IMG/VR virus record: IMGVR_UViG_3300027980_000044
Coordinates: 1 to 48,748 of that record
DNA from: a virus
Length of the DNA stretch: 48,748 nt
Direction: 5' to 3' (one strand)
Shown here: in pieces, positions 387-48,748 of the stretch
How positions within the stretch are numbered: position 1 is the first letter of the stretch
Layout: each line of letters starts with the position of its first letter
The notes under the pieces: model-generated
Databases searched by the model: none
Seen by the model: only the letters and a program-made list of their open reading frames with translations
What the model was told of the DNA's origin: nothing
Made by a program: the position numbers and the translations under genes

Positions 387-788
387 ATGTACAAACTTTC
401 AAAAAGATCTCTTGATAGTCTTGATGGGGTTCATCCGGACCTCGTCAAGGTTGTTAAGAGGGCTATCCAAATCACTAAACAAGACTTCTTTGTAGGTGAG
501 GGAGTACGTTCTGTAGAGAGACAAAAGAGGCTTGTGGCTTCTGGTGCTTCACGCACTATGAACTCTCGTCATATCACAGGACACGCTGTAGACCTTCATC
601 CGTATCCCTACAACGGAGATCACGACCAAGATGGTGTTCCAAATCGTGATGACTGGGACGCTTACCGACCAATCGTAGAGGCTATGTCTAGGGCTGCTGA
701 TGAACTCGGTGTTCCACTAGAGCATGGCTGGGACTGGGGTTGGGATGCGCCCCACCATCAACTACCTTGGAGTGATTATCGTGTTTAA
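387..788 (+). CDS. Endolysin, M15-type L,D-/L-Ala-D-Glu peptidase
   Basis: A 133-residue peptidoglycan peptidase that would cut peptide stems of the host wall at lysis. The zinc-site pattern of M15C/VanY-like peptidases is visible: SRHITGHAVDLHP around residues 52-64 and DAPHHQLPW near 121-129, with an EGVRS segment at about 38-42. Between the two metal half-sites, around residues 69-80, is DHDQDGVPNRDD, which fits a 12-residue EF-hand calcium loop. The T5 endolysin of this family is calcium regulated (from memory), so calcium control is plausible here. The ATG has a strong AAGGAAGG ribosome site. It opens a lysis cassette of four genes. Confidence 0.9.
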   Translation: MYKLSKRSLDSLDGVHPDLVKVVKRAIQITKQDFFVGEGVRSVERQKRLVASGASRTMNSRHITGHAVDLHPYPYNGDHDQDGVPNRDDWDAYRPIVEAMSRAADELGVPLEHGWDWGWDAPHHQLPWSDYRV

Positions 789-1790: not shown

Positions 1791-4700
1791 ATGGCAAAGA
1801 GACCATCTATTTCTTCTGTAGGTTCTGGTTACACATCCCCAGAGACCCTAAACCAAAACTTCCAGAACATTGCTGAAGCATTTGACAACACACTGTCTAG
1901 GGATGGCTCCACGCCTAACTCTCTGGGGTCCGACCTAGACCTAGACGGTAACGATATCCTTAACGTAGATAACCTCACTGTTACTGGTACAATCAATTAC
2001 CAAGGTCGTGTCTTGACACCCGGAGGGGGTGGCGAAGGCTCCGGTGTTGCCGTTCTGTACAACTCGACCCTTCTAACTCCTGTTGCTACTGCTCTGAACT
2101 TCACTGGGGCAGGTGTAACAGTCACAAACGATGGTTTGACTAAGACGATCAACATCCCCGGTGCAGGTGGCTCTGGTGGTCTTCCTACCTACAGTCAACC
2201 AGCTTCAGTACGGACTGACATTGGGAATGGAACACTCTCGGATGGAGACAAGTTCTACCTCGGTGGGGAGTTGTTTGAAGTCCAACGTAGTCTAGATAAT
2301 GATCCGGACTCTTGGTTCTACAACACCAACGGTGACACCAATTACGGTGTTAAACCTATCTCTCCTCTTCCATACAACTACTATGTCTTCCCGGGTTTCA
2401 AAACCCAAGACAACAATAAGATTCACATTAGTATCTCTCCCGATGGACGTAGATTCTTCCGTCTCAACGCTGAACCCATCATGCGTGGTGGTGGAGACAG
2501 CACTATCGGTGGTCGAGACTCTCAGTTGTTCTGGAACGAGAACCTTGGTGAATGGTGGATGCCTGTTACCTCGGGCAGTGAAGTAACTGATTATGACTTC
2601 TCTGTCTTCCGGTCTCGAGACGGTATTACCTTTGGGTTGTCTCGTGGTTATCTTGACGCCAACAGTCCTGAAGGTAAAGTACGAGGGAAGACTCTTCCGG
2701 GTACTTCTCGTCCTGTGGATCGTCAGTGGTCTAACAAGTTCTATCGCTTTAACGGTACACTGTACATCATCACGTCTCTTCAGGTTCTCCCTGATGTCAC
2801 CAATGCGTTTGGTAATAATGCCCCTCAGTTCCGTCCGTACATCGCTGAGGTTATCGACGAAGACAACATGCTCTTCGGTCCTGTCACACAGCTTCAAATC
2901 GGTGGGGCAACTGACGCTAAACTGAACCCTGACTTCATCCTCGTAGACGGTACTTACTACGCTTGTATCAAAGATAGTCCTACTCGTTCTATCGAAGTCT
3001 GGTCTGCTACTGATCTGTTTGGTACTTGGACACTTGAAGATACTATCGACCTCAACCCGGCTGACTTGAACAGTCTGGAAGGCGATACTTGGGCTGTGCA
3101 TAAGTATGTAGACCCGAATGACCCAGACAACATTCTGATTAAATACCGTATCCATCTGGCTAACAACCGTGATGAGAACGACAAACTGATCGGTATTCCT
3201 CGGTTTACTGAATCTCTAACCACACCTGCTGGTCCTTATGGAGACATCGAACAACTAGACTTCTCCCATGCTTCCCGCAACGGTACTATCACTAATTTGG
3301 CGATGGTCAACGACCCTCGTGCTATCAAGTCCATTATGGCTGCTCAAGATGCTTACGTTGGTCAATTCCGACACAAAGTGGACGAACAGGAGACTCTGGA
3401 CGCTGGTACACACGACCTGTACCCTCAACAGAGTTTCATGTATACAATCGCTGGAGCAGGTGGTTCTACTGTTGTAGAAGTGAAAGAGAAGGTTGCTGAT
3501 CGTTTCTACGTTGGTGTTAACAACACTAATGCCGGAGCTACTATTGAGTTCACTGGTAACGATCTCTGTCGTGAGTTCACTGTAGGTGGTGGTGCCCAAG
3601 AGTACGTCGAGGTTATCTGGCTTGAGGCTATCGGTAAGTACGTACCAATTGGCCGTATACAGTCTTTTGGTGTTGCCGATAAACAACTTCTGACAGATAC
3701 CACAGACACTGTGACACCCACACAGGACACCGAGTACTATATTCTGGGTACAGCAGGGTCCACACAAGTAACCATCCCTGAGAAGGGAGCTGATAGCTTC
3801 TACGTAGCTGTTCACAACAGTGATCCCGGAGCTACTGTAGAGTTCATCGGCAATGACTTCTGTCGTCCCTTTACAGTAGGTGGTGGTCAACAGGAGTTGA
3901 TCCAAGTTATCTGGTCTGAGCAAATCGGTAAGTACATTCCGGTGGGACGTTTGTCTACCGGTGGTGGTGGCTCCTCAGACGGTGTCATCAATGGGTTGAC
4001 CTTCAACTCAGGAACAAATGTGCTGACAGCCTCTAGGACTGTTGGGGGTGATCTAACCGCTGACCTGTCTGCTCTGGATACCCAAGAAGGTATCACAGTT
4101 GAGGACGAAGGTGTTCCACTCACTACTCTTGCAACCACTTTGAACTTCACAGGTACTGGTGTAACCGTTACTGGAACCGGTGCTGAGAAGACAGTGACTA
4201 TCAACTCTGGTGGTGGAAGCGCTGACGGTGTTGTGACAGCAGGTACCTATAACTCTACTTCAAAGGAAGTAACTCTGTCTAGGTCTGAAGGCCTTGCTGA
4301 TGTTACAGTAGACATGAGTGGACTGCCTTACAGATACTTCGGCTCGACCACTGTTCTTCTGGACCAGTCTGGTGCTGATGGCTGGGGTATTCGGGATGCT
4401 GCTACAGATGGTGACTTTATCCCATTCGGCACTTCTCGTCGCCTAGGGAACCTTGCAAACCCTGTGAGGGGTGTTACACTGGAGGCTAGGGATGCAGCCG
4501 GTGGAACTGGCACAGACCATCTGGAACTGTTCCTTGCACAGAATGGTTCCCTGAGACTTACCGATGTAAATTCTCCTACAAACAACGATGGTTTGGACAT
4601 CAATGCGTTCAACCAAGTTCACATAGATACACGTACATCGGGTACTGCAACTTGGGATCGCTCTAACGGCAATGTCATCAACTTCACCAGCAGTCTTTCC

Positions 4701-4910
4701 AGCACACTTACTGTGGACTTGTCTAGTATGAAGGTTGGTGAGTTTGTGTTTGTTCGGGTGGGTAGTCCTAATAGCCGGACTATCAGCTTCACAGGACAAA
4801 CCTTTGAGTGGGCAGGAGGCTCTCAGCCTTCAACTACCGCGAGTACGATGTCTTACATCTTCTTCAGAGTAGGTTCGTCTAATACACAAGCTATCGCTGT
4901 GGAGTTCTAA
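1791..4910 (+). CDS. Tailspike / tail fibre with glycosidase-like beta-propeller
   Basis: A 1039-residue virion protein. Residues 1-75 are a typical fibre attachment region (SPETLNQNFQNIAEAF, then DLDLDGNDILNV). From about 165 to 510 there are repeating propeller-like strands with SPDGRRFFRL, SRDGITFG, FYRFNGTLYIITS and DFILVDGTYYACIKD, which recall GH43/GH32-type five-bladed glycosidases; a capsule- or LPS-degrading role is inferred. After this the protein carries two internal duplications: a 75-residue block (GN(D)xCR.FTVGGG.Q, near 545-625 and 640-715) and a shorter LNFTG.GVTVT block near 102-112 and again near 780-790. The start follows AGGAG and comes six bases after the HNH stop. Confidence 0.88.
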   Translation: MAKRPSISSVGSGYTSPETLNQNFQNIAEAFDNTLSRDGSTPNSLGSDLDLDGNDILNVDNLTVTGTINYQGRVLTPGGGGEGSGVAVLYNSTLLTPVATALNFTGAGVTVTNDGLTKTINIPGAGGSGGLPTYSQPASVRTDIGNGTLSDGDKFYLGGELFEVQRSLDNDPDSWFYNTNGDTNYGVKPISPLPYNYYVFPGFKTQDNNKIHISISPDGRRFFRLNAEPIMRGGGDSTIGGRDSQLFWNENLGEWWMPVTSGSEVTDYDFSVFRSRDGITFGLSRGYLDANSPEGKVRGKTLPGTSRPVDRQWSNKFYRFNGTLYIITSLQVLPDVTNAFGNNAPQFRPYIAEVIDEDNMLFGPVTQLQIGGATDAKLNPDFILVDGTYYACIKDSPTRSIEVWSATDLFGTWTLEDTIDLNPADLNSLEGDTWAVHKYVDPNDPDNILIKYRIHLANNRDENDKLIGIPRFTESLTTPAGPYGDIEQLDFSHASRNGTITNLAMVNDPRAIKSIMAAQDAYVGQFRHKVDEQETLDAGTHDLYPQQSFMYTIAGAGGSTVVEVKEKVADRFYVGVNNTNAGATIEFTGNDLCREFTVGGGAQEYVEVIWLEAIGKYVPIGRIQSFGVADKQLLTDTTDTVTPTQDTEYYILGTAGSTQVTIPEKGADSFYVAVHNSDPGATVEFIGNDFCRPFTVGGGQQELIQVIWSEQIGKYIPVGRLSTGGGGSSDGVINGLTFNSGTNVLTASRTVGGDLTADLSALDTQEGITVEDEGVPLTTLATTLNFTGTGVTVTGTGAEKTVTINSGGGSADGVVTAGTYNSTSKEVTLSRSEGLADVTVDMSGLPYRYFGSTTVLLDQSGADGWGIRDAATDGDFIPFGTSRRLGNLANPVRGVTLEARDAAGGTGTDHLELFLAQNGSLRLTDVNSPTNNDGLDINAFNQVHIDTRTSGTATWDRSNGNVINFTSSLSSTLTVDLSSMKVGEFVFVRVGSPNSRTISFTGQTFEWAGGSQPSTTASTMSYIFFRVGSSNTQAIAVEF

Positions 4911-5291
4911 ATGCTACAACTGTTCATGATGATGTCTGCCTTTGCGGCTAATCAAGAGACAGTTACCTACACATGGTCTATGACAGCTGGGACGAATGGT
5001 TCGTACAACGGCTATTCCCCAGCGTCAGACCTAAACGTTGGTTCTATCTCTGCGGAGCCTGTAGCAGGTCAGACGATACGAAGACAACTCTCTGGTGTGT
5101 CTAACGCGTCTAGGTTCCAGTTCCTTGGTAACGCTACTTCAGCTGTATCAGGGTTCACTGAATTGGTCGTTAATGGGACTTCCTACGCAATCTCTTCTTG
5201 GACATACAATGGTACAGCAACATACGCTGTGTTTACAACAACTGCTCCTACGTATAGTAACGGTGTTACCTACACCTGTGAGCTTAGATAA
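4911..5291 (+). CDS. Small tail-associated protein sharing the fibre C-terminal domain
   Basis: A 126-residue beta-rich protein starting immediately after the tailspike stop. The first 13 residues are hydrophobic (MLQLFMMMSAFAA) and could be a signal or a poorly formed start. From about residue 42 it aligns by eye with the C-terminal domain of the propeller fibre that ends at 376 (ISAEP..G..I, GN, LVVNGTSYAISSW, NGVTYTCEL). The shared domain suggests a common virion dock or a receptor-binding knob. No enzyme motif is visible. Confidence 0.75.
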   Translation: MLQLFMMMSAFAANQETVTYTWSMTAGTNGSYNGYSPASDLNVGSISAEPVAGQTIRRQLSGVSNASRFQFLGNATSAVSGFTELVVNGTSYAISSWTYNGTATYAVFTTTAPTYSNGVTYTCELR

Positions 5292-5340
5292 ACAAAAAGA
5301 AAGCCCCTAAGGAGAAATCCCTAGGGGCTATTTTCTTTTA
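5291..5340. terminator. Bidirectional intrinsic terminator
   Basis: AGCCCCTA at 5302-5309 pairs with TAGGGGCT at 5322-5329, with extra GG/CC pairs inside. On the + strand it is followed by ATTTTCTTTT; on the - strand the far side reads TTTCTTTTTGTTT. It separates the converging tail and replication blocks and would stop both. Confidence 0.9.
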
Positions 5341-5520
5341 GTTTACTGGTGTGAGTGATACCACCCGGTCAGGGTCGTTCTGCTCAAAGTCGATCTCTTG
5401 AGCCATCCACTCGTACATAGCCTCAGCTAGTTCCATGACGTCTTGGTCTTGGTGTTGCCGTGCTTCTACTGCGAGTTGGAGTGCTGCCATTTTTACGGAG
5501 AAGGATGAAATTGTGTTCAT
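5338..5520 (-). CDS. Hypothetical small acidic protein, last gene of leftward block
   Basis: A 60-residue acidic, probably all-helical protein (AALQLAVEARQHQDQDVMELAEAMYEWM). Its ATG overlaps the stop of the DUF3310 gene as ATGA, so it is translationally coupled. No known domain recognised. It ends directly at the terminator. Confidence 0.75.
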   Translation of the reverse strand: MNTISSFSVKMAALQLAVEARQHQDQDVMELAEAMYEWMAQEIDFEQNDPDRVVSLTPVN

Positions 5521-5849
5521 GTGGTTTCCTTTGCGGTGTACTCTTCTTTGATCAGTTCTAGGTAATGAATAGCTTTATTGATATCCTCTAGACCGTTCTT
5601 GTCCTTGTGACGTGAGACATACTTTACTACGTTACCTTCGTACCAACCTAGATTATTTTCTCTGATGTATTCGATGGGTTGGATCTTGAAGGTCTTGTAG
5701 TGGGCACCTCCCACTTGTTTGTCTTTTGGTTTCACTTCGTTTGTCCTTCGGAACGTCGGAAGAGAGCAACAATAGAGGGTCTGTCCGGGCAGTACATCAC
5801 GGTAGATCTTACCACAACTCTGACACCGGTAGTCACTCTTCGTTTCCAC
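5517..5849 (-). CDS. DUF3310 protein with N-terminal zinc-ribbon-like segment
   Basis: A 110-residue protein. Residues about 48-105 match the phage DUF3310 family (HYKTFKIQPIEYI, NLGWYEGNVVKYVSRH, LEDINKAIHYL), often labelled as a nucleotide-kinase-like protein though its activity is unproven. Ahead of it is an unusual short segment with C-x2-C and a CC pair (residues 9-28), probably zinc binding. GTG 5849 is the chosen start: it has GGAGGA upstream and overlaps the preceding 50-residue gene. Confidence 0.8.
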   Translation of the reverse strand: METKSDYRCQSCGKIYRDVLPGQTLYCCSLPTFRRTNEVKPKDKQVGGAHYKTFKIQPIEYIRENNLGWYEGNVVKYVSRHKDKNGLEDINKAIHYLELIKEEYTAKETT

Positions 5850-5985
5850 CTGTGAGTCCTCCTTCGATACCTTCTAGTGCGATTTGAAGACCGATAAGCA
5901 TCCAGTCTTTAGTCGGGCCATCTGGGAGGATTTGAACCCCCCAGCCAATAAGTTCAGCACTGAGCCACATTCGGAATTTAAGCAT
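5833..5985 (-). CDS. Hypothetical small protein coupled to thyX
   Basis: A 50-residue gene. Its ATG at 5985 lies in the last codons of thyX (ATGCTTAA), and its stop overlaps the next gene's GTG. The product begins MLKFRMWLSAELIGWG and has a second hydrophobic helix (WMLIGLQIALEGI). Perhaps membrane-associated. No family recognised. Confidence 0.7.
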   Translation of the reverse strand: MLKFRMWLSAELIGWGVQILPDGPTKDWMLIGLQIALEGIEGGLTGGNEE

Positions 5986-6652
5986 TCTCTTCTTCTTTCT
6001 TAACGAGTTCCCCCCAAGATACGGGGAAAAGCTCTTTCATTTTTTCGTCAATTTGTTGAGCCACAAGACGTGACTCGTATTGTGTGTCTTCTTTAAGACG
6101 TAGGCTGCACATGTCTGCAAAGGCGTCGAGGCTGCCAGACCAATACCACTCGGTCATCATGGACTGAGGTAGGATCATACGGGCTTGCTCAGGGCAGACC
6201 CCTTGCTCTATAAGGTGTTTGTAGAGACTTAAAGTCTCTTCGTTTTGAGCGTAAACATCCTCTGGGATATCCTTGAACTCCCACAGAGACTCGTAAGTTT
6301 GGACAGGTAGGTCCGTACTACCTTGCTTCTTGTCTACGGCCTTGGATCTCCAAACGTCTGGTACGTAAAGCTCGGGTGCGTCATCTACATAGCGTCGACT
6401 GATTTCATTCCACCTTAGGTATTGGTGCTTCACCAACTGTCTAGCGACAAAAAGAGGTGCCCTAACCCTGAACGAGGCAAAACAGTGTCCAAAGGGTGAG
6501 ATATGTTTGTTCCTCGCCAAATAGGAAATTAGTTTGTCGTTTTGTTCTTTTGAGTAAAGAGATGCTTCTTTGTCGAAAGACACTCTCGCAGCATTAACTA
6601 CCGTTTCATCAGTACCCATATGGTCTAAGTAGTCAACCTTGATTTGAGCCAT
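5978..6652 (-). CDS. thyX: Flavin-dependent thymidylate synthase ThyX
   Basis: A 224-residue enzyme that methylates dUMP to dTMP using methylenetetrahydrofolate and FADH2, supplying thymine for phage DNA. The signature region is at about residues 79-92: KHQYLRWNEISRRY. The usual cellular motif is RHR..S.NE.S.RY; here the first and third residues are Lys and Gln and the first Ser is Arg, while NE.S.RY is intact. I recall KH-type variants in other phage ThyX proteins, so this is likely functional. ISPFGHC near 51-57 also fits the family. It lies downstream of nrdJ, so dNTP supply genes are co-transcribed. Confidence 0.95.
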   Translation of the reverse strand: MAQIKVDYLDHMGTDETVVNAARVSFDKEASLYSKEQNDKLISYLARNKHISPFGHCFASFRVRAPLFVARQLVKHQYLRWNEISRRYVDDAPELYVPDVWRSKAVDKKQGSTDLPVQTYESLWEFKDIPEDVYAQNEETLSLYKHLIEQGVCPEQARMILPQSMMTEWYWSGSLDAFADMCSLRLKEDTQYESRLVAQQIDEKMKELFPVSWGELVKKEEENA

Positions 6653-7080
6653 TCAATAATCCTCTCTAAGTCTTCTATACTAGCGTCGTCTTTTATTCTA
6701 TTAGCCCTCTGTGAGAGCCACTGAACGTTTCCTTTTACGTAACCTTTTTCCGGAACCACCCTGTCTAACTCGGCTGCCTCTGAACTCCCTTTCGGAGCTT
6801 TCAAACTGAGAGGTGTTCCGAAGACGGGGCAAACTCCAGTCCAGATACCTTTTAAGTGAGCTACGTCCAAGTCAAAAGGTAGACCTTTGTCTGAGGCCCT
6901 GTGCCTAGCGGACCTCATCCTAATGGCAAACCTGTTTTTGTCTCTGTACTTTTTCTGGTACCCCTTGTTTCTCTCTACGTAACAAGCTTTACAAAGAGAG
7001 TGGAGACCTCCACGATTCCTATAGAAGTCTCCAGTGCTCTTCGGGGTAAGACACCCAGTACAGACCTTTGTCTGGCTCAA
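6625..7080 (-). CDS. HNH endonuclease, free-standing
   Basis: A 151-residue HNH nuclease. The N-terminus has two CxxC pairs (CTGC, CKAC) forming a likely zinc finger; the C-terminal half carries AELDRVVPEKGYVKGNVQWL, the DR.....GY..GNV core of a phage HNH family. The preferred start is TTG 7080, which overlaps the upstream stop as TTGA. Its 3' end overlaps the thyX start by 28 bases. Such genes often behave as homing nucleases inserted between nucleotide-metabolism genes; here it sits between the nrdJ cluster and thyX. Confidence 0.85.
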   Translation of the reverse strand: MSQTKVCTGCLTPKSTGDFYRNRGGLHSLCKACYVERNKGYQKKYRDKNRFAIRMRSARHRASDKGLPFDLDVAHLKGIWTGVCPVFGTPLSLKAPKGSSEAAELDRVVPEKGYVKGNVQWLSQRANRIKDDASIEDLERIIEWLKSRLTT

Positions 7081-7286
7081 GTAGCTCTCCCCAGTGTTAC
7101 ATATTTTTGGTCAGCGATGTAGGCTCCCTCTGGGAGAGAGTCCACATTGTTTTGTTTAAAGGTAAAGTTGGCTTCACGACATTCAGCCTCAGTCCTAAAG
7201 GGCATCAGAGAGGTTGCCAGACCACACCCCTCAGGGGTCCTAATGCCTTGCTCCAAACCACATACCAGTGTTAGTGCGATAAACAT
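7077..7286 (-). CDS. Hypothetical small protein with signal-like N-terminus
   Basis: A 69-residue product starting MFIALTLVCGLEQG, a short hydrophobic stretch that could be a signal peptide or lipoprotein-like start (Cys at 9), followed by a soluble region with two further Cys. GGAGGG precedes the ATG. Export and inhibition of a host function are possible but unsupported. Confidence 0.65.
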   Translation of the reverse strand: MFIALTLVCGLEQGIRTPEGCGLATSLMPFRTEAECREANFTFKQNNVDSLPEGAYIADQKYVTLGRAT

Positions 7287-9426: not shown

Positions 9427-9596
9427 GTTAGTTTGTCTACTTTCTTTTGAGCTGAGGAAACACTGTTAAAACTACCCAAGTACTTCTTCCTCCGGTAAAG
9501 GAGGTAGTTCTCCCCCCGATCAGCCTCTAGGTAGAACTCACCGTCTTTAGTCTCCCATGACCATCTGGTCACTGGCTCTAGTTTAAACGAGGTCAC
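9423..9596 (-). CDS. Hypothetical small protein between mazG and nrdJ
   Basis: A 57-residue gene starting at GTG 9596 within the end of mazG, with its TGA overlapping the nrdJ ATG as ATGA. The product has an aromatic start (FKLEPVTRWSWETKDGEFYL) and a basic tail with RRKKYLGSF. A later GTG at 9572 is an alternative start. The double overlap argues that it is real. Function unknown. Confidence 0.68.
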   Translation of the reverse strand: MTSFKLEPVTRWSWETKDGEFYLEADRGENYLLYRRKKYLGSFNSVSSAQKKVDKLT

Positions 9597-9978
9597 TGAG
9601 GTCTACCTTTGGGTAATCTTTGTTCTTCACGATTTTACCGTCCTCTCTGCGTTGAATAGTACCATCTGGCTGGTACATACGACCCATGTTGTTGTCGTGG
9701 ACACGAAGCAGAGCTTGGTCTAGATCCCACCCTCGAGCATTAGCATATCCGTAGATGACATACACTAGGTCGGCAAGCTCTTTAAGCTGAGGAGCCTTAG
9801 TGATGTGTCGCCACTCTGTATCCCACTCAAAGAACTCCTCATGCACTAGACTCCGGTAAAGGACTGGATCAGGTTCTTGTCCCGAAACCTCTTGGTACTC
9901 CTTTACCATTTGTAGAGGGGTTTTGTCTCTTACGTCCTCACTTGGCTCCCAATATTCAAACATTTCTAGTTGGCTCAA
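9583..9978 (-). CDS. mazG: MazG-like nucleotide pyrophosphohydrolase
   Basis: A 131-residue all-alpha NTP pyrophosphohydrolase. The metal-binding helices are visible as EEFFEW (about 52-57) and KELADLVY (about 71-78), giving the ExxE...ExxD pattern, followed by GWDLDQALLRVHDNNMGR. It would hydrolyse nucleotides such as dUTP, dCTP or an alarmone. I place the start at TTG 9978, which overlaps the upstream TGA as TTGA and has GGAGG eight bases before it; a longer frame from 10014 would start inside the upstream membrane-protein gene. Together with nrdJ and thyX it forms a nucleotide-supply set. Confidence 0.88.
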   Translation of the reverse strand: MSQLEMFEYWEPSEDVRDKTPLQMVKEYQEVSGQEPDPVLYRSLVHEEFFEWDTEWRHITKAPQLKELADLVYVIYGYANARGWDLDQALLRVHDNNMGRMYQPDGTIQRREDGKIVKNKDYPKVDLSDLV

Positions 9979-43800: not shown

Positions 43801-45234
43801 GGTGCCCGTGCCGCTGTGTCTGCTATTCCACTTCGGTTGGCCCTCAACGCTACAAACCCTGCTACACAGAAGCTGGCTGTTAACCGTCTGGCTAAAGTGA
43901 TCGGGGAGACAGAAGAAACTGCTGCCGAACTGGTGGAGTACATTCGTTCCTCTGGTCGAGACATTGTGGATGGAGATGCTATTGAGTTGGGCACTGGTCC
44001 TTCTTATGGTATCTCAGGTTGGCAAGAGAACTCTTACCTTCCTTCCTCTGTCTCTAATGTACTTCAGAAAGCGACTAACGGTGGTCAAGCCCTTTTGGAC
44101 TTTGGTCTTCAGCCCTTCCGTCAAGGTGAGCGTCTGTCTCGTCTTACTGGGATGACTACAGCGTTCTTTGAGTACAAAGCGAAGTATCCTAAGTCTTCTG
44201 CTCTGTCTGACGAAGGACGTAGGTGGATTACCACACGTGAACAGAACCTTACTTTCAACATGACTGCTTCGGCTCGTCCTATGTTCCAAGAAGGTGTGAT
44301 GAAAGTTCCAACCCAGTGGTTGTCCTACAGTTTCCGTGCGATGGAGACAATGGTCTTGGGTCGTGGGTTTACCCCTGCTGAACGTGCCCGTATGGCTGCT
44401 GCACTTCTTCCGTTCTACGGTATGACTGGAATGGGTCTTGGCTCTGCTGCTGAGTGGGCCTCGGAGAAACTTGGTCTAGAAGATCCTGAGTTGTTCATCG
44501 GACTTAAGTACGGTTTCCTTGATTACCTTATCTCGGAGATCACTCCTGTTGAGACTGCCTTGGCTACCCGTCTTGCCCCAATCACTGCCTTCACTGACCT
44601 TTGGAGTAACATTGTTGGTGGAGAGAAGAGCTTTATTCAAGTAATCGGTGGTCCTTCCGGGGACATTACTACTGGTGTACTTGGACAGTTCTTAGAGGTT
44701 GGTAACGAGCTGTGGAATGGACATACTGTGTCTCTCACAGAGGACAGCCTAGCTTTGTTGCGTCAGCCTTCTGGTTTGGACAACATTGCGAAAGGTATCG
44801 GCATCCTGACTAACGGAATGTATCGCTCTAAGACTGGAACCATCCTTCCTGTTGAGATGAAACCTTCTGATGCTCTCATCAGTTTCATGGGGTTCTCTCC
44901 TCTCGAAGTATCCGAGTTCTACTCTCAGAAGTCTGGTCAGTTCAACTCAGACAAGAAGCTTCGTGCTTTCACCAAACAGATGAGAAAAGACTACCAGTTG
45001 GCGATGCAGCTTTGGAGAGAAGATCCTGATAAAGGAACTAAGATGTTCCAAGAGATCCACACTAAGGTCGCTTTGTCTGGTTTCTCAATGGCTCAACAAC
45101 AAAAGATCCGTCAGGGTCTTGCTAAAGATGTAAGCTACCAAGAGGTATACTACATCATTCAAAACCTAATTGAACGAGACAGGAATAACACTGCACTCGT
45201 TGTTGAACAACTCCTAGGAGAAAAAACACAATGA
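40900..45234 (+). CDS. Large internal virion (ejection) protein, 1444 residues
   Basis: The largest gene. Helical throughout, with a hydrophobic segment near 250 (NVIAGLAAFEAIGIAKPLV), and another region near 940-975 (LGFQSAFGFFNVSQFVMQSF), followed by repeated helical hairpins. This fits a gp16-like ejection protein that forms the DNA-translocating channel across the periplasm and inner membrane. Unlike T7 gp16, no lysozyme motif is evident here; the glycosidase domain is in the next gene. Starts at the base after the previous stop. Confidence 0.85.
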   Translation: MTNFPVNKMPTGPVNFMDQEQTENVNSSAVGDRAVSLAAGEGVAPTQTREASRVGDKSAVLQSQPPIQSTQENYVREALAQGNVNLETLSAAVAMAPEKAEVRQELEDYFIEVGRLEKDANYTPTDLRYVTNTLIAEQLFRDRISEVESDTGFVGRVGDWVDRYMLRQIPIGMVEDLTKRRERKGEELLQAALTMNPKQYKEFISNYIDELSDEGFFLSDNIYALQDGFEEAVNAGYDPFGNVIAGLAAFEAIGIAKPLVRSVRSLGKADSVIGRVAALEGQEIAAEVAEKAIEASEGLDPHILTKAGPEAFDEGTAVVRPQSAKVLEIAETNTLWAKIRELDKKGVFGRVATPEETLSAGRKIVDDYKKRVTNTFNNFSVIQDIAGNSIVRTDFGNIKNGTPYKRMRDAEKAASKSVPEAYAAPVDPDDASKGFVVRVDKRIDVTGLADEFDTNAIEYGAIRENFARVFGSNAALDDEYLTALANMAESGQTAIKEAARTYEKALKTTPRDSKVAIVRVFKELRDGQDAATKMGYTREEFKQKFKEFHPKGLAPTEKDMEAYDALTQFEDAGWLMRANESLARYVKNDYWAIEVDDGRTIARKAKEVPEDTWVYNVTTGVNDRYSNIDVPVWRLDQPRRDGVEYVSNPKSVKVLDHADVMGFNAGGRRVNPKANYFVTFDGDRPRAVMTTFTEKQARIAVDQLNKLRAKVRELGGDINKIKSSEELDDVVRANNDWNPSITTFDEFATLVKDRGWDLTKKISHKQRDGEIVDETADSFHKGEKWDNYVRVQLHRYNDTLMDFGGGESYNVDPVSAILGEFANAATHYTHRAYTYKASASWVKRAARKGSGVKLSDSFAKDDYLNQVQHAEITGSDSVARRMRHQRAVIRRRLKMSGPVQQRFEAFGQEVAEFVSDATKGRIQPHSLDPSDNLLKLGFQSAFGFFNVSQFVMQSFHATTIIAISPKQGARAAVSAIPLRLALNATNPATQKLAVNRLAKVIGETEETAAELVEYIRSSGRDIVDGDAIELGTGPSYGISGWQENSYLPSSVSNVLQKATNGGQALLDFGLQPFRQGERLSRLTGMTTAFFEYKAKYPKSSALSDEGRRWITTREQNLTFNMTASARPMFQEGVMKVPTQWLSYSFRAMETMVLGRGFTPAERARMAAALLPFYGMTGMGLGSAAEWASEKLGLEDPELFIGLKYGFLDYLISEITPVETALATRLAPITAFTDLWSNIVGGEKSFIQVIGGPSGDITTGVLGQFLEVGNELWNGHTVSLTEDSLALLRQPSGLDNIAKGIGILTNGMYRSKTGTILPVEMKPSDALISFMGFSPLEVSEFYSQKSGQFNSDKKLRAFTKQMRKDYQLAMQLWREDPDKGTKMFQEIHTKVALSGFSMAQQQKIRQGLAKDVSYQEVYYIIQNLIERDRNNTALVVEQLLGEKTQ

Positions 45235-47753
45235 CACTAGCCCCTACCCTTAACCAAGGGATTGGCTTTGAACAGCCAGTTCAAGAACCCAATATTCTGT
45301 CTGGCATTGGAAACACCCTGAGTGCTTTTGCCTCAGGGACTTCCAAAAAGAAAGGCCCTTCTTACAAAGACCAACAGGAGGTTGCCCTTAAAGGTGGTCT
45401 TGTTGAAGGTCTTGAGAAAGCACAGGCCCTTCGGGAACAGGGTAAGGGGTCTCAGGCAACACGTCTAGAGCGTGAAACACTTCTGAAATACTCGATGCAA
45501 GGTGGTGATCTTAACTCTGGGGATACTCAGTCTCTGATTACCACCTACACGGGTCGTCCATCTGAGGATGTTGGCTTTACTCAAGAAGAAGCTGCTTTCC
45601 AAGATATGATCCAAAGCCCTGAGTTCCAGAAGTCTTTTCTAGGTACTTTTGCTTCTCATCCAGAGGCATCCGAAGAAGAGCGGATTAACATTGCTGCGTC
45701 TAACCTTCAGATGGCGGCTGCTACAGAAGATATCATCCAACAGACTAAGACAAACTGGATTGCTAACCAAGGTCAGTCTTCTCGTGTGGCTAAGATCGAA
45801 CAATGGCGTCAAGGTAACATGGGTATCTTGTCTCTCTCCGGCACTCAGAATGGTCGAGTAGACAACAACTCTGTGCAACAAGCCATGTTGGACTTTGGGA
45901 ACCTGAGAGCAGAGATCATCAACTCTCGTCCTGCTGGTGTAGCTTCTGGTGAATGGAAACCTGTTGAAGACTCTCTGGCTGCTGTGGAGAAACAACTCCA
46001 ACTGGCAAACGAACTGACCTCTAACGACGAGATTGCTTCTGATCTGGTGCGTGAGTTTATGGACGCTGTGGCTGGTCTTGAAGATGTCTCGATGGCAGAC
46101 AAGAACGTAGCTATCCAAGTTATGATGAAAGATCCGTCTGCTTTCCTTGAGCGTGGTGCTATCCAAGAAGGTACACTCCAGAACATTTTCTCTGCTGCTT
46201 CTAAGGTTGTTGTAGAAGACAATGCTGCTGCTCTTGAGAAAGGCAATGGTAACGGTGATGTTATCGGGGACGAAAACCCCGGTGCTTTCACTACAGCTGA
46301 AATGGAGTCTGTCTCCGGCACTGATCCGAGTATTAAGTTCCGTGAGGCGTCTGACCTCGCTTCGGCTGCTGGTGGTATCACCAATGTTCTGAACGACCAA
46401 ACTGCAACTTCTCAGTGGATCGGTCTTACTCGCCAAGGTCTTGCTTCTCTGAAGTCTATGGCTGCTGAAAACGAAGCTTGGGCAACTGCTGAAGGCTACC
46501 GGAAGTATTTCAACCAGAACTTCTTCCAAACGATGGATGGTCTTCGTAACAGTGGTTCTACCTTCCCGTATGACGCTATGCGGGGTAAAGCTCTGGACAC
46601 TATCGACACGAACATCACTGCTCTCCGGGCTGGTATCAATGTACGGACAGAGAGCAACATTGTAGAGTACAGTGCCGCTTCCAATTCACTTATCTTCAAT
46701 CGGGATGCCTTCTTGGCCTCTGACCGTGTACCGCCTTCTGTAAAGGCAGAGGCTCTGTCTGTCATTGACAACAAGTACAACGGGGATATTATGAAGTACA
46801 TCACCAACGAACCTAGTTACTTGACTAGCCGTATCTTTGGTGAACTTCAAAACTCTGACGTGACTGATCGTATCAAAGCGATTGACCAACTGAATACCTT
46901 CAAATCTCGTCTTCCTGCCACTGAAGAAGAACTTCAAGGTGGAGAGGGTGTAGGACAACTCGGGGGTGGACAGGGTTCTGACTTCATGGGTCCGGACACA
47001 GCAACAGGTCTTATCGCTGAGTTTGAAGGCTTTCGTGAAGGCGCTTACTGGGATGTGAATGCTTTCCGTGCAGGCTTTGGTTCTGATACAATCACTCTGG
47101 CTGACGGTACTGTAAAAAGTATTAATGAGACCTCTGTGGTCACACGTGAAGACGCTGAAAGGGATCTTGCCCGTAGGGCTGAAGAGTTCGCCACTAAAGC
47201 CAAACGTCAAGTAGGCTCCGATGTGTGGACAAACCTACCGGGTAACGTGACAAACGCTCTTACGTCTATCGCCTACAACTACGGCAGTCTTCCTGATAGG
47301 ATTGTACCTGCCGTTAAGTCAGGTGACATTGAGGAAATCGCTCGTGCTGTGGAGACACTGAAGAACGACAACGATGGGGTAAACTCCCGACGTCGTCAGC
47401 GTGAGGCAGATATCATCCGAGGTAAACAACTTCCTCCGTCTGCTGCTCCTATCTACGCTTCAGCACCTCCGAGTCGACCAGAAAGTCTTGGTCAAGTCGA
47501 AAAACCTGAGGTAAAGGTAGCGTCTACTGGTGGTACTGCCGTAGAGGCCCGTGGAGCTTCACCAGAGGCTGTAACACAGGTTAAACGTACCGAGGGTACT
47601 AAACAAGAAAAGACCCCTGACAAAGCCTCTGAGCAGATCTGGGGTAAACTAGAAAGTCAGACAAAGAAGATGTTGGTTCGTCTCTTTGGTGACGAAGAAG
47701 CTGCCCTGAAGGCTATTGCCGAGGGTGAAATTTCTGAGGAGGATCTTCTGTGA
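45231..47753 (+). CDS. Internal virion protein with C-terminal GH24 lysozyme domain
   Basis: An 840-residue protein. About 580 helical residues precede a phage-type lysozyme domain at about 590-725: AEFEGFREGAYWD contains the catalytic Glu and the following Asp, and LTSIAYNYGSLPDRIV and SRRRQREADI fit the C-terminal lobe. At the place of the usual TIGYG loop the sequence is RAGFGSDT, so the T4-lysozyme catalytic Thr is replaced. It likely opens peptidoglycan locally during DNA injection. The C-terminal 100 residues are a Pro/Glu-rich linker and helix. It starts in the previous stop as ATGA. Confidence 0.87.
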   Translation: MTLAPTLNQGIGFEQPVQEPNILSGIGNTLSAFASGTSKKKGPSYKDQQEVALKGGLVEGLEKAQALREQGKGSQATRLERETLLKYSMQGGDLNSGDTQSLITTYTGRPSEDVGFTQEEAAFQDMIQSPEFQKSFLGTFASHPEASEEERINIAASNLQMAAATEDIIQQTKTNWIANQGQSSRVAKIEQWRQGNMGILSLSGTQNGRVDNNSVQQAMLDFGNLRAEIINSRPAGVASGEWKPVEDSLAAVEKQLQLANELTSNDEIASDLVREFMDAVAGLEDVSMADKNVAIQVMMKDPSAFLERGAIQEGTLQNIFSAASKVVVEDNAAALEKGNGNGDVIGDENPGAFTTAEMESVSGTDPSIKFREASDLASAAGGITNVLNDQTATSQWIGLTRQGLASLKSMAAENEAWATAEGYRKYFNQNFFQTMDGLRNSGSTFPYDAMRGKALDTIDTNITALRAGINVRTESNIVEYSAASNSLIFNRDAFLASDRVPPSVKAEALSVIDNKYNGDIMKYITNEPSYLTSRIFGELQNSDVTDRIKAIDQLNTFKSRLPATEEELQGGEGVGQLGGGQGSDFMGPDTATGLIAEFEGFREGAYWDVNAFRAGFGSDTITLADGTVKSINETSVVTREDAERDLARRAEEFATKAKRQVGSDVWTNLPGNVTNALTSIAYNYGSLPDRIVPAVKSGDIEEIARAVETLKNDNDGVNSRRRQREADIIRGKQLPPSAAPIYASAPPSRPESLGQVEKPEVKVASTGGTAVEARGASPEAVTQVKRTEGTKQEKTPDKASEQIWGKLESQTKKMLVRLFGDEEAALKAIAEGEISEEDLL

Positions 47754-48748
47754 GACTTTACCCAAGCCTAACGGTTGACGGTGAGTTCAAAGCTTTGAGG
47801 GACGCTGGTTACACTGGCTCCCTCAATGATATGCAATTCGCTTTTCTACGTTCTGAGGGATACTCTGGTGCCCTTGGTGATATGCAGTACCAATTCACAG
47901 GGGGTGATGCCCCTCCTAGTGGTGTCTACTACCCACCGGCGACAACCATTTTAAGTAGTTTTTCCACTCCCGGGCCAAGTCCAATCGGGCTGGCGTTTGA
48001 TGGAAATAACCTGATAAGTTGTGATTTTAACACCGACAGGATCTATATCCACGACGGCGTAAGCTCCACAGTATCAAGCAATTTCGCCTCCCCAGGAGCT
48101 TTCCCCTACGGCTTAACATTTGATGGAACCAACCTGATTAGCTGTGATGGAGTGGCCGCTAGAATTTACGTGCATAGCGGGGTAAGTTCGACCACCTTGA
48201 GCAACTTCGCCACGCCCGGAACGTTTCCCACTGGACTGGCATTCGATGGAACCAACCTGATTAGCTGTGATGCGTCCTCTGACACCATTTATGTACACAG
48301 TGGCATAAGCTCCACTATCTCCAGCAGCTTCGCCAGCCCTGGAGGGGGCTCCTCACTAGGCCTGACGTTTGACGGAACTAACTTGATTAGCTGTGATAAT
48401 TCAGCAGAAATCATCTATATCCACGATGGGGTAAGCTCAACCATCCTAGACAGCTTTTCTAGTCCGTCCGGAAACCCTAGCGGCCTTACGTTTAACGGAA
48501 CAAACCTAATCAGTTGCGACACTAGCTCTGACACCATTTACGTACATGGGACTGGTCCTTCTCAGTTCGATCTAACAGCAGTAGAAAACCCTCTCAATAC
48601 AACTTTGGTTGGTTACGACACACGGGGTACCCCGTTTGGACAAATCTCACAAGAACCTTTCGATGGATACGAAATCAGCGTCTTGCTGTACGTCGGTTCC
48701 TCTAACTCTGTAGACCTCCGTTTCAAAGGGAATGTAGTTGACGACCTA
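47750..48748 (+). CDS. Beta-propeller tail fibre, 5' part (continues at 1-376)
   Basis: A GTG at 47750 overlaps the previous TGA as GTGA and opens a 382-residue protein that continues across the join. Residues 1-50 are a small duplicated helix motif (RDAGYTGSLNDMQ, then RSEGYSGALGDMQ). Residues about 68-270 are five blades of 41-42 residues with the pattern GL.FDGTNLISCD....IYVH.GVSST. The DNA units start at 47996, 48119, 48242, 48368 and 48491. Codon choice in the blades (AGC, ACC, ATC, CTG) differs from the flanks (TCT, GGT, CGT), suggesting an acquired cassette. Likely receptor-binding. Confidence 0.85.
   Translation, partial: MRLYPSLTVDGEFKALRDAGYTGSLNDMQFAFLRSEGYSGALGDMQYQFTGGDAPPSGVYYPPATTILSSFSTPGPSPIGLAFDGNNLISCDFNTDRIYIHDGVSSTVSSNFASPGAFPYGLTFDGTNLISCDGVAARIYVHSGVSSTTLSNFATPGTFPTGLAFDGTNLISCDASSDTIYVHSGISSTISSSFASPGGGSSLGLTFDGTNLISCDNSAEIIYIHDGVSSTILDSFSSPSGNPSGLTFNGTNLISCDTSSDTIYVHGTGPSQFDLTAVENPLNTTLVGYDTRGTPFGQISQEPFDGYEISVLLYVGSSNSVDLRFKGNVVDDL
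47996..48540 (+). repeat. Five tandem propeller-blade repeats
   Basis: Blade units recur every 123, 123, 126 and 123 bases. The most constant DNA piece is GATGGAACCAACCTGATTAG, present with few changes in each unit. In-frame spacing shows protein-level repeats rather than a non-coding array. Confidence 0.9.
48523..48748. repeat. Terminal redundancy, right copy
   Basis: Matches 1-226 with one difference at 48621 (C here, A at 99; Thr versus Lys in the fibre). Removing one copy gives a circle of 48522 bases with an intact fibre gene. Confidence 0.9.

Follow-up and report, generated by a model that had tools for sequence, protein, structure and literature searches.

A fibre-like gene of a cobavirus-like phage encodes a five-bladed propeller in foreign codons: a probable mobile recognition module

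Tail fibres of phages are modular proteins that combine a conserved anchor with a variable tip. Receptor-binding proteins of the type found in Staphylococcus phage phi11 are defined by a five-bladed beta-propeller and by recognition of GlcNAc on wall teichoic acid. That such a propeller can serve as a receptor-binding platform is seen in the phi11 protein itself, for which the best DALI match is the glutamine cyclotransferase 3NOL (PMC4901313). In beta-propellers that are highly repetitive and recently amplified, the blades are almost the same, as copying of a single blade would produce (PMC9218822); a word search of the main text of that survey returned no phage or five-bladed example. Among Cobavirinae, gp51 of Lentibacter phage ICBM2 (AYP28110.1) is a propeller of five repeats and is encoded in the tail-gene region.

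Here, we analyze the record IMGVR_UViG_3300027980_000044, derived from an uncultured marine-type phage; the window comprises the whole stretch of 48,748 bases. The internal virion protein D of this phage is 29-31% identical over more than 90% of its length to those of ICBM2, CRP-4 and CRP-5, and the order of the late genes and their neighbours is the same as in Siovirus/Veravirus, which places the phage among or near the Cobavirinae (Zobellviridae). A megablast comparison of the late region with phage records yielded no match.

A fibre-like gene of this phage encodes a propeller of five four-stranded blades that resembles the phi11 protein in this architecture, in the order of N-terminal part, propeller and C-terminal domain, and in having glutamine cyclotransferase as the best fold match. 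The phi11 protein, however, forms a large trimer and has a helical stem, whereas the window protein has an N-terminal part of 62 residues and blades that are nearly identical repeats of 41 residues, and its propeller domain passes from one unrelated protein to another. From its position and its partners, we infer that the window propeller may play the same receptor-binding role. It shares near-identical blades with the recently amplified propellers but belongs to a family that is nearly confined to virus contigs. ICBM2 gp51 is a structural match as well; it differs in sequence family, in repeat length (about 48 amino acids), in its Lactonase/SGL-like matches and in its place in the genome. As in other modular tail fibres, the N-terminal part is conserved and the body is exchanged, but the unit of exchange is an entire propeller that is also found on a tail terminator, a nozzle-like protein and other tail proteins. 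The product of the gene is probably an accessory receptor-binding (adhesin) protein in which an imported, mobile propeller is flanked by ends of the phage's own.

The fibre-like gene and its slot

The ends of the contig overlap, bases 1-226 duplicating 48523-48748 with one mismatch, so that the gene, interrupted at base 48748, resumes at base 227. Once the ends are joined, it is complete and encodes 382 amino acids on the plus strand: the first 333 codons at 47750-48748, starting with a GTG that overlaps the stop of the upstream gene, and the last 49 codons and the stop at 227-376. The upstream gene (45231-47753, plus strand) encodes an internal virion protein with a lysozyme domain; the gene immediately downstream (387-788, plus strand) encodes an M15-like endolysin. 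The fibre-like protein comprises an N-terminal part (residues 1-62; 47750-47935), presumed to be the virion anchor, the propeller of five repeats of about 41 residues (residues 63-269; 47936-48556), and a C-terminal domain (residues 270-382; 48557-48748, completed by 227-373).

The mismatch in the contig-end overlap is a Thr/Lys difference, and the overlap begins at residue 258-259, near the end of the codon-atypical stretch described below; it may mark the edge of a cassette at which the assembly of a mixed population branched. The main fibre gene lies separately, at 1791-4910; its first ~130 residues are nearly identical to those in the related record L006, followed by strong divergence. An HNH endonuclease gene (1527-1784) is located between the lysis and fibre genes, and the HNH-like genes of L006, judged by eye, sit in other positions.

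Two helices (residues 11-18 and 25-35) are predicted, with low confidence, in the N-terminal part, of which residues 1-51 recur in other cobavirus-like phages ahead of unrelated bodies. ORF51 of PQ867845 occupies the same slot and carries the same N-terminal part (51%) on an unrelated body; in L058, this part is followed by a LamG-like body, with a LamG score just under the Pfam cut-off; and L036 encodes a weaker homologue. For the C-terminal domain, a single-sequence scan detected no relatives, no family was matched, and the structural model is poor (pLDDT 44). The entire fibre-like gene is absent from L006, the sequence of which is about 94% identical as far as the slot: the junction is clean, the stop of the upstream gene directly overlapping the start of the endolysin gene, and a search of that record found neither the propeller nor the N-terminal part. 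The unit gained or lost at L006 is therefore the gene, not its middle. Taken together, the comparisons with PQ867845, L058 and L006 indicate that the slot houses exchangeable proteins and that the N-terminal part is kept within it. A scan with the conserved end of the upstream gene matched L006 only, and no relative was found that carries this gene in full, so that the breakpoints of the window gene itself are deduced. The upstream gene also differs between the two phages: in place of its lysozyme domain (46956-47474), L006 has an unrelated one, with the gene more than 90% identical on both sides, a second domain swap beside the fibre slot.

Codon usage along the gene

Synonymous codon choice was scored at constant amino acid sequence, with the late genes of the phage itself as the reference. 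The N-terminal part (z -0.4) and residues 270-382 (z -0.9) are typical of the phage, whereas the propeller has a z of -10.2, compared with -5.84 for the lowest control, and none of the 306 other 207-codon segments of the genome is as low. Scored separately, blades 1 to 5 have z values of -5.9, -4.7, -5.4, -4.4 and -2.7. Because the blades are repeats and thus not independent, one random codon per blade column was also scored; the mean z was -4.2, a value matched by one of 1323 late-gene segments of 41 codons. The best-scoring atypical stretch covers residues 62-256 and so agrees to within one residue with the 5' edge of the domain homology (residue 63); the 3' edge is softer, the atypical stretch ending at 256 and the homology at 269.

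This profile confirms the observation made in the initial annotation, which had placed a foreign-coded middle between phage-typical ends at 47938-48545, a span that corresponds to the propeller. The codons then said to be favoured hold up in part. AGC (15 of 39 serines, compared with 46 of 557 in the reference) and ACC (9/23 versus 106/544) are indeed enriched, CTG is modestly so (6/14 versus 121/535), and ATC is not (9/18 versus 231/376). GGA is also more frequent than in the late genes, while GGT (1 of 24 glycines versus 363/590) and TCT (3/39 versus 257/557) are depleted. A plain GC profile displays only a small rise in GC3, insufficient by itself to carry the claim of a codon break. Since the propellers of many relatives fit the codon usage of their own genomes, with z of about 0 in several other phages, the foreign pattern is not general to the family.

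A virus-associated propeller family and its exchange between phages

An AlphaFold model built from 18 aligned proteins consists of five four-stranded blades, with 20 strands in order and mostly pLDDT 90+ for residues 63-268. The nearest solved folds are glutaminyl cyclases (Z 23-24) and YjiK (Z 22.4), and the model matches the five-bladed structures 2faw, 3mbr and 3qqz over its full length; with four antiparallel strands per blade around one axis, the predicted fold is a five-bladed beta-propeller. By sequence, the propeller reaches no Pfam or NCBIfam cut-off and has no credible PHROGs match: membership in PF05096 (glutamine cyclotransferase) was rejected at 13.4 bits against a gathering cut-off of 22.3, and NHL, WD40 and glutaminyl cyclase families likewise fell below every cut-off.

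The blades, about 41 amino acids each, share the conserved motifs DGxNLISCD and IY(I/V)H; we refer to this group as the FDGTNLISCD propeller family. The window propeller is 60-69% identical to the other three members of a four-copy family profile, which it matches with E 2e-113, being itself one of the four rows. This profile retrieved 43 loci in IMG/VR virus contigs, whereas in 84,980 prokaryote genomes it gave a single weak match. Searches of 50,697 phage records did not recover the propeller, so that there is no cultured host to help. The same records yielded no match to the L019 and L016 propellers (with the low-complexity filter on), a plasmid search gave no match, and a single-sequence scan with the whole fibre-like protein found no relatives. 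The family is thus uncatalogued in Pfam, NCBIfam and PHROGs and nearly confined to virus contigs.

Propellers of this family are joined to about 20 unrelated N-termini. Clustering of the flanks by sequence similarity gave 24 clusters, 21 of them N-terminal, with one perhaps held together by serine-rich sequence alone. Identified partners include a tail terminator (PF23961; L033), a T7 gp12-like tail protein (phrog_376; L035) and a tail assembly protein (phrog_1082; L037). The L035 propeller sits inside its host protein (4647-7097), and a single protein of L015 (2325-4574) contains two five-blade propellers in tandem.

Comparison of two loci, L022 and L034, shows that the propeller moves between phages as a block. 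Their propellers are 98.7% identical, whereas the flanks are 59% (842 columns) and 69% (563 columns) identical, the change being abrupt on both sides, at the glycine linker that precedes blade 1 and immediately after the stop codon. The two loci come from different metagenomes and differ in gene setting further out, and their propellers are not one assembled sequence because about eight scattered differences separate them. The converse is seen between L010 and L019, where the propeller is 83.5% identical and the flanks are 94.8% and 98.4% identical. Many silent differences in the propeller, as against zero differences in the N-terminal part of the same gene, exclude selection on the protein as the source of this divergence. 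Given that the blades within one gene, that of L011, differ about as much as L010 does from L019 (pS 0.43), the divergence reflects either import or within-gene blade shuffling, and the latter could account for it.

Variation is concentrated on one side of the propeller. With loop borders taken from the model strands, and the D-A and B-C loops assigned to one face on the basis of standard propeller topology, mean entropy is 2.6 bits in these top loops and 1.4 in the bottom loops (A-B and C-D). Between L010 and L019, pN is 0.30 in the top loops versus 0.03 elsewhere, a roughly tenfold difference at similar pS. The hypervariable B-C position recurs in every blade; in blade 1 of the window protein, it corresponds to residues 93-96 (48026-48037, plus strand). 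One-sided loop variation of this kind is the pattern expected of a recognition face, and the top-face loops are likely to form the putative ligand site.

A diversity-generating retroelement was considered as the source of this variation and rejected: the window record has no match to reverse transcriptase PF00078, and 2 of 33 records pass the cut-off. One of these is the contig of L016, denoted L062, in which the variable repeat lies in a gene other than that of the propeller. On the reverse strand of this contig, a pair of 116-base repeats (9540-9655 and 9734-9849) adjoins the reverse transcriptase gene. The two copies differ at 16 positions, at every one of which the same copy has an adenine; this element is, by its sequence signature, a diversity-generating retroelement, the putative target of which is a gene for a 625-amino-acid protein, not the propeller. 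The other propeller-bearing record that passes the reverse transcriptase cut-off is the contig of L028 (G022:C1:7476-8021).

Origin and function of the window propeller

The initial annotation also proposed that a receptor-binding middle had been swapped between conserved ends. The exchange is well supported by the family's behaviour and the codon profile, namely the joining of the propeller to about 20 N-termini, block transfer in relatives, and the occurrence of the N-terminal part before unrelated bodies; for the window gene, the breakpoints themselves were not seen, and in L006 it is the whole gene that is missing. An alternative, which we regard as rather unlikely, is that gain (or, in L006, loss) involved the gene in its entirety, with the propeller already inside and its codons odd owing to fivefold amplification of one ancestral blade. 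The clean junction in L006, amid ~94% identity around the slot, fits this scenario, as does the repeat nature of the blades. Furthermore, serine AGY codons are common to propellers of unrelated phages at the same blade positions and are hence ancestral to the repeat. However, the signal persists with one codon per blade column, the loss of GGT contributes to it beyond serine, the N- and C-terminal parts are codon-typical, the N-terminal part occurs elsewhere without a propeller, and the propellers of several other phages are adapted to their genomes.

Other readings appear far less probable. That the propeller is an enzyme instead of a binder, for instance a glutaminyl-cyclase-like or glycan-degrading one, is suggested by its nearest solved folds and by the weak match to PF05096; this match is well below threshold, though, no single asymmetric active site is obvious among near-identical blades, and variable loops occupy one face of each blade, so that we find an enzymatic role quite improbable. 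Still less credible is a reading without any exchange, in which the codons of a surface-repeat gene were shaped by selection acting on mRNA structure or translation. Synonymous bias by itself names no donor, but the codon break coincides with a domain edge, block transfer is directly seen in relatives, and such selection would require a similar bias in all propellers regardless of genome, whereas many relatives with the same fold show none.

The reading that we favour is thus import of the propeller. The short N-terminal anchor and the C-terminal domain would be native to the phage, and the propeller would have been acquired, probably recently, from the propeller gene of another phage, its codons still unadapted. 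It would act as a mobile recognition module, in which the scaffold and the bottom loops are nearly invariant and the top-face loops D-A and B-C vary freely; located on the virion, it would bind a ligand through these loops, and swapping of the block or of blades would alter what the virion binds and, possibly, the host range.

More broadly, it seems an even bet that this essentially virus-confined family supplies a recognition head of general use, its back invariant and its front hypervariable, which otherwise unrelated phages exchange as a block between their tail, neck and fibre proteins and which changes binding without a diversity-generating retroelement. The swapping of receptor-binding tips is already known; in the present case, what is swapped is one recognisable fold family that Pfam, NCBIfam and PHROGs lack, the variable face and exchange borders of which can be read from sequence. 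This makes it testable which loops determine phage specificity and would help annotators to spot receptor-binding proteins in uncultured phages.
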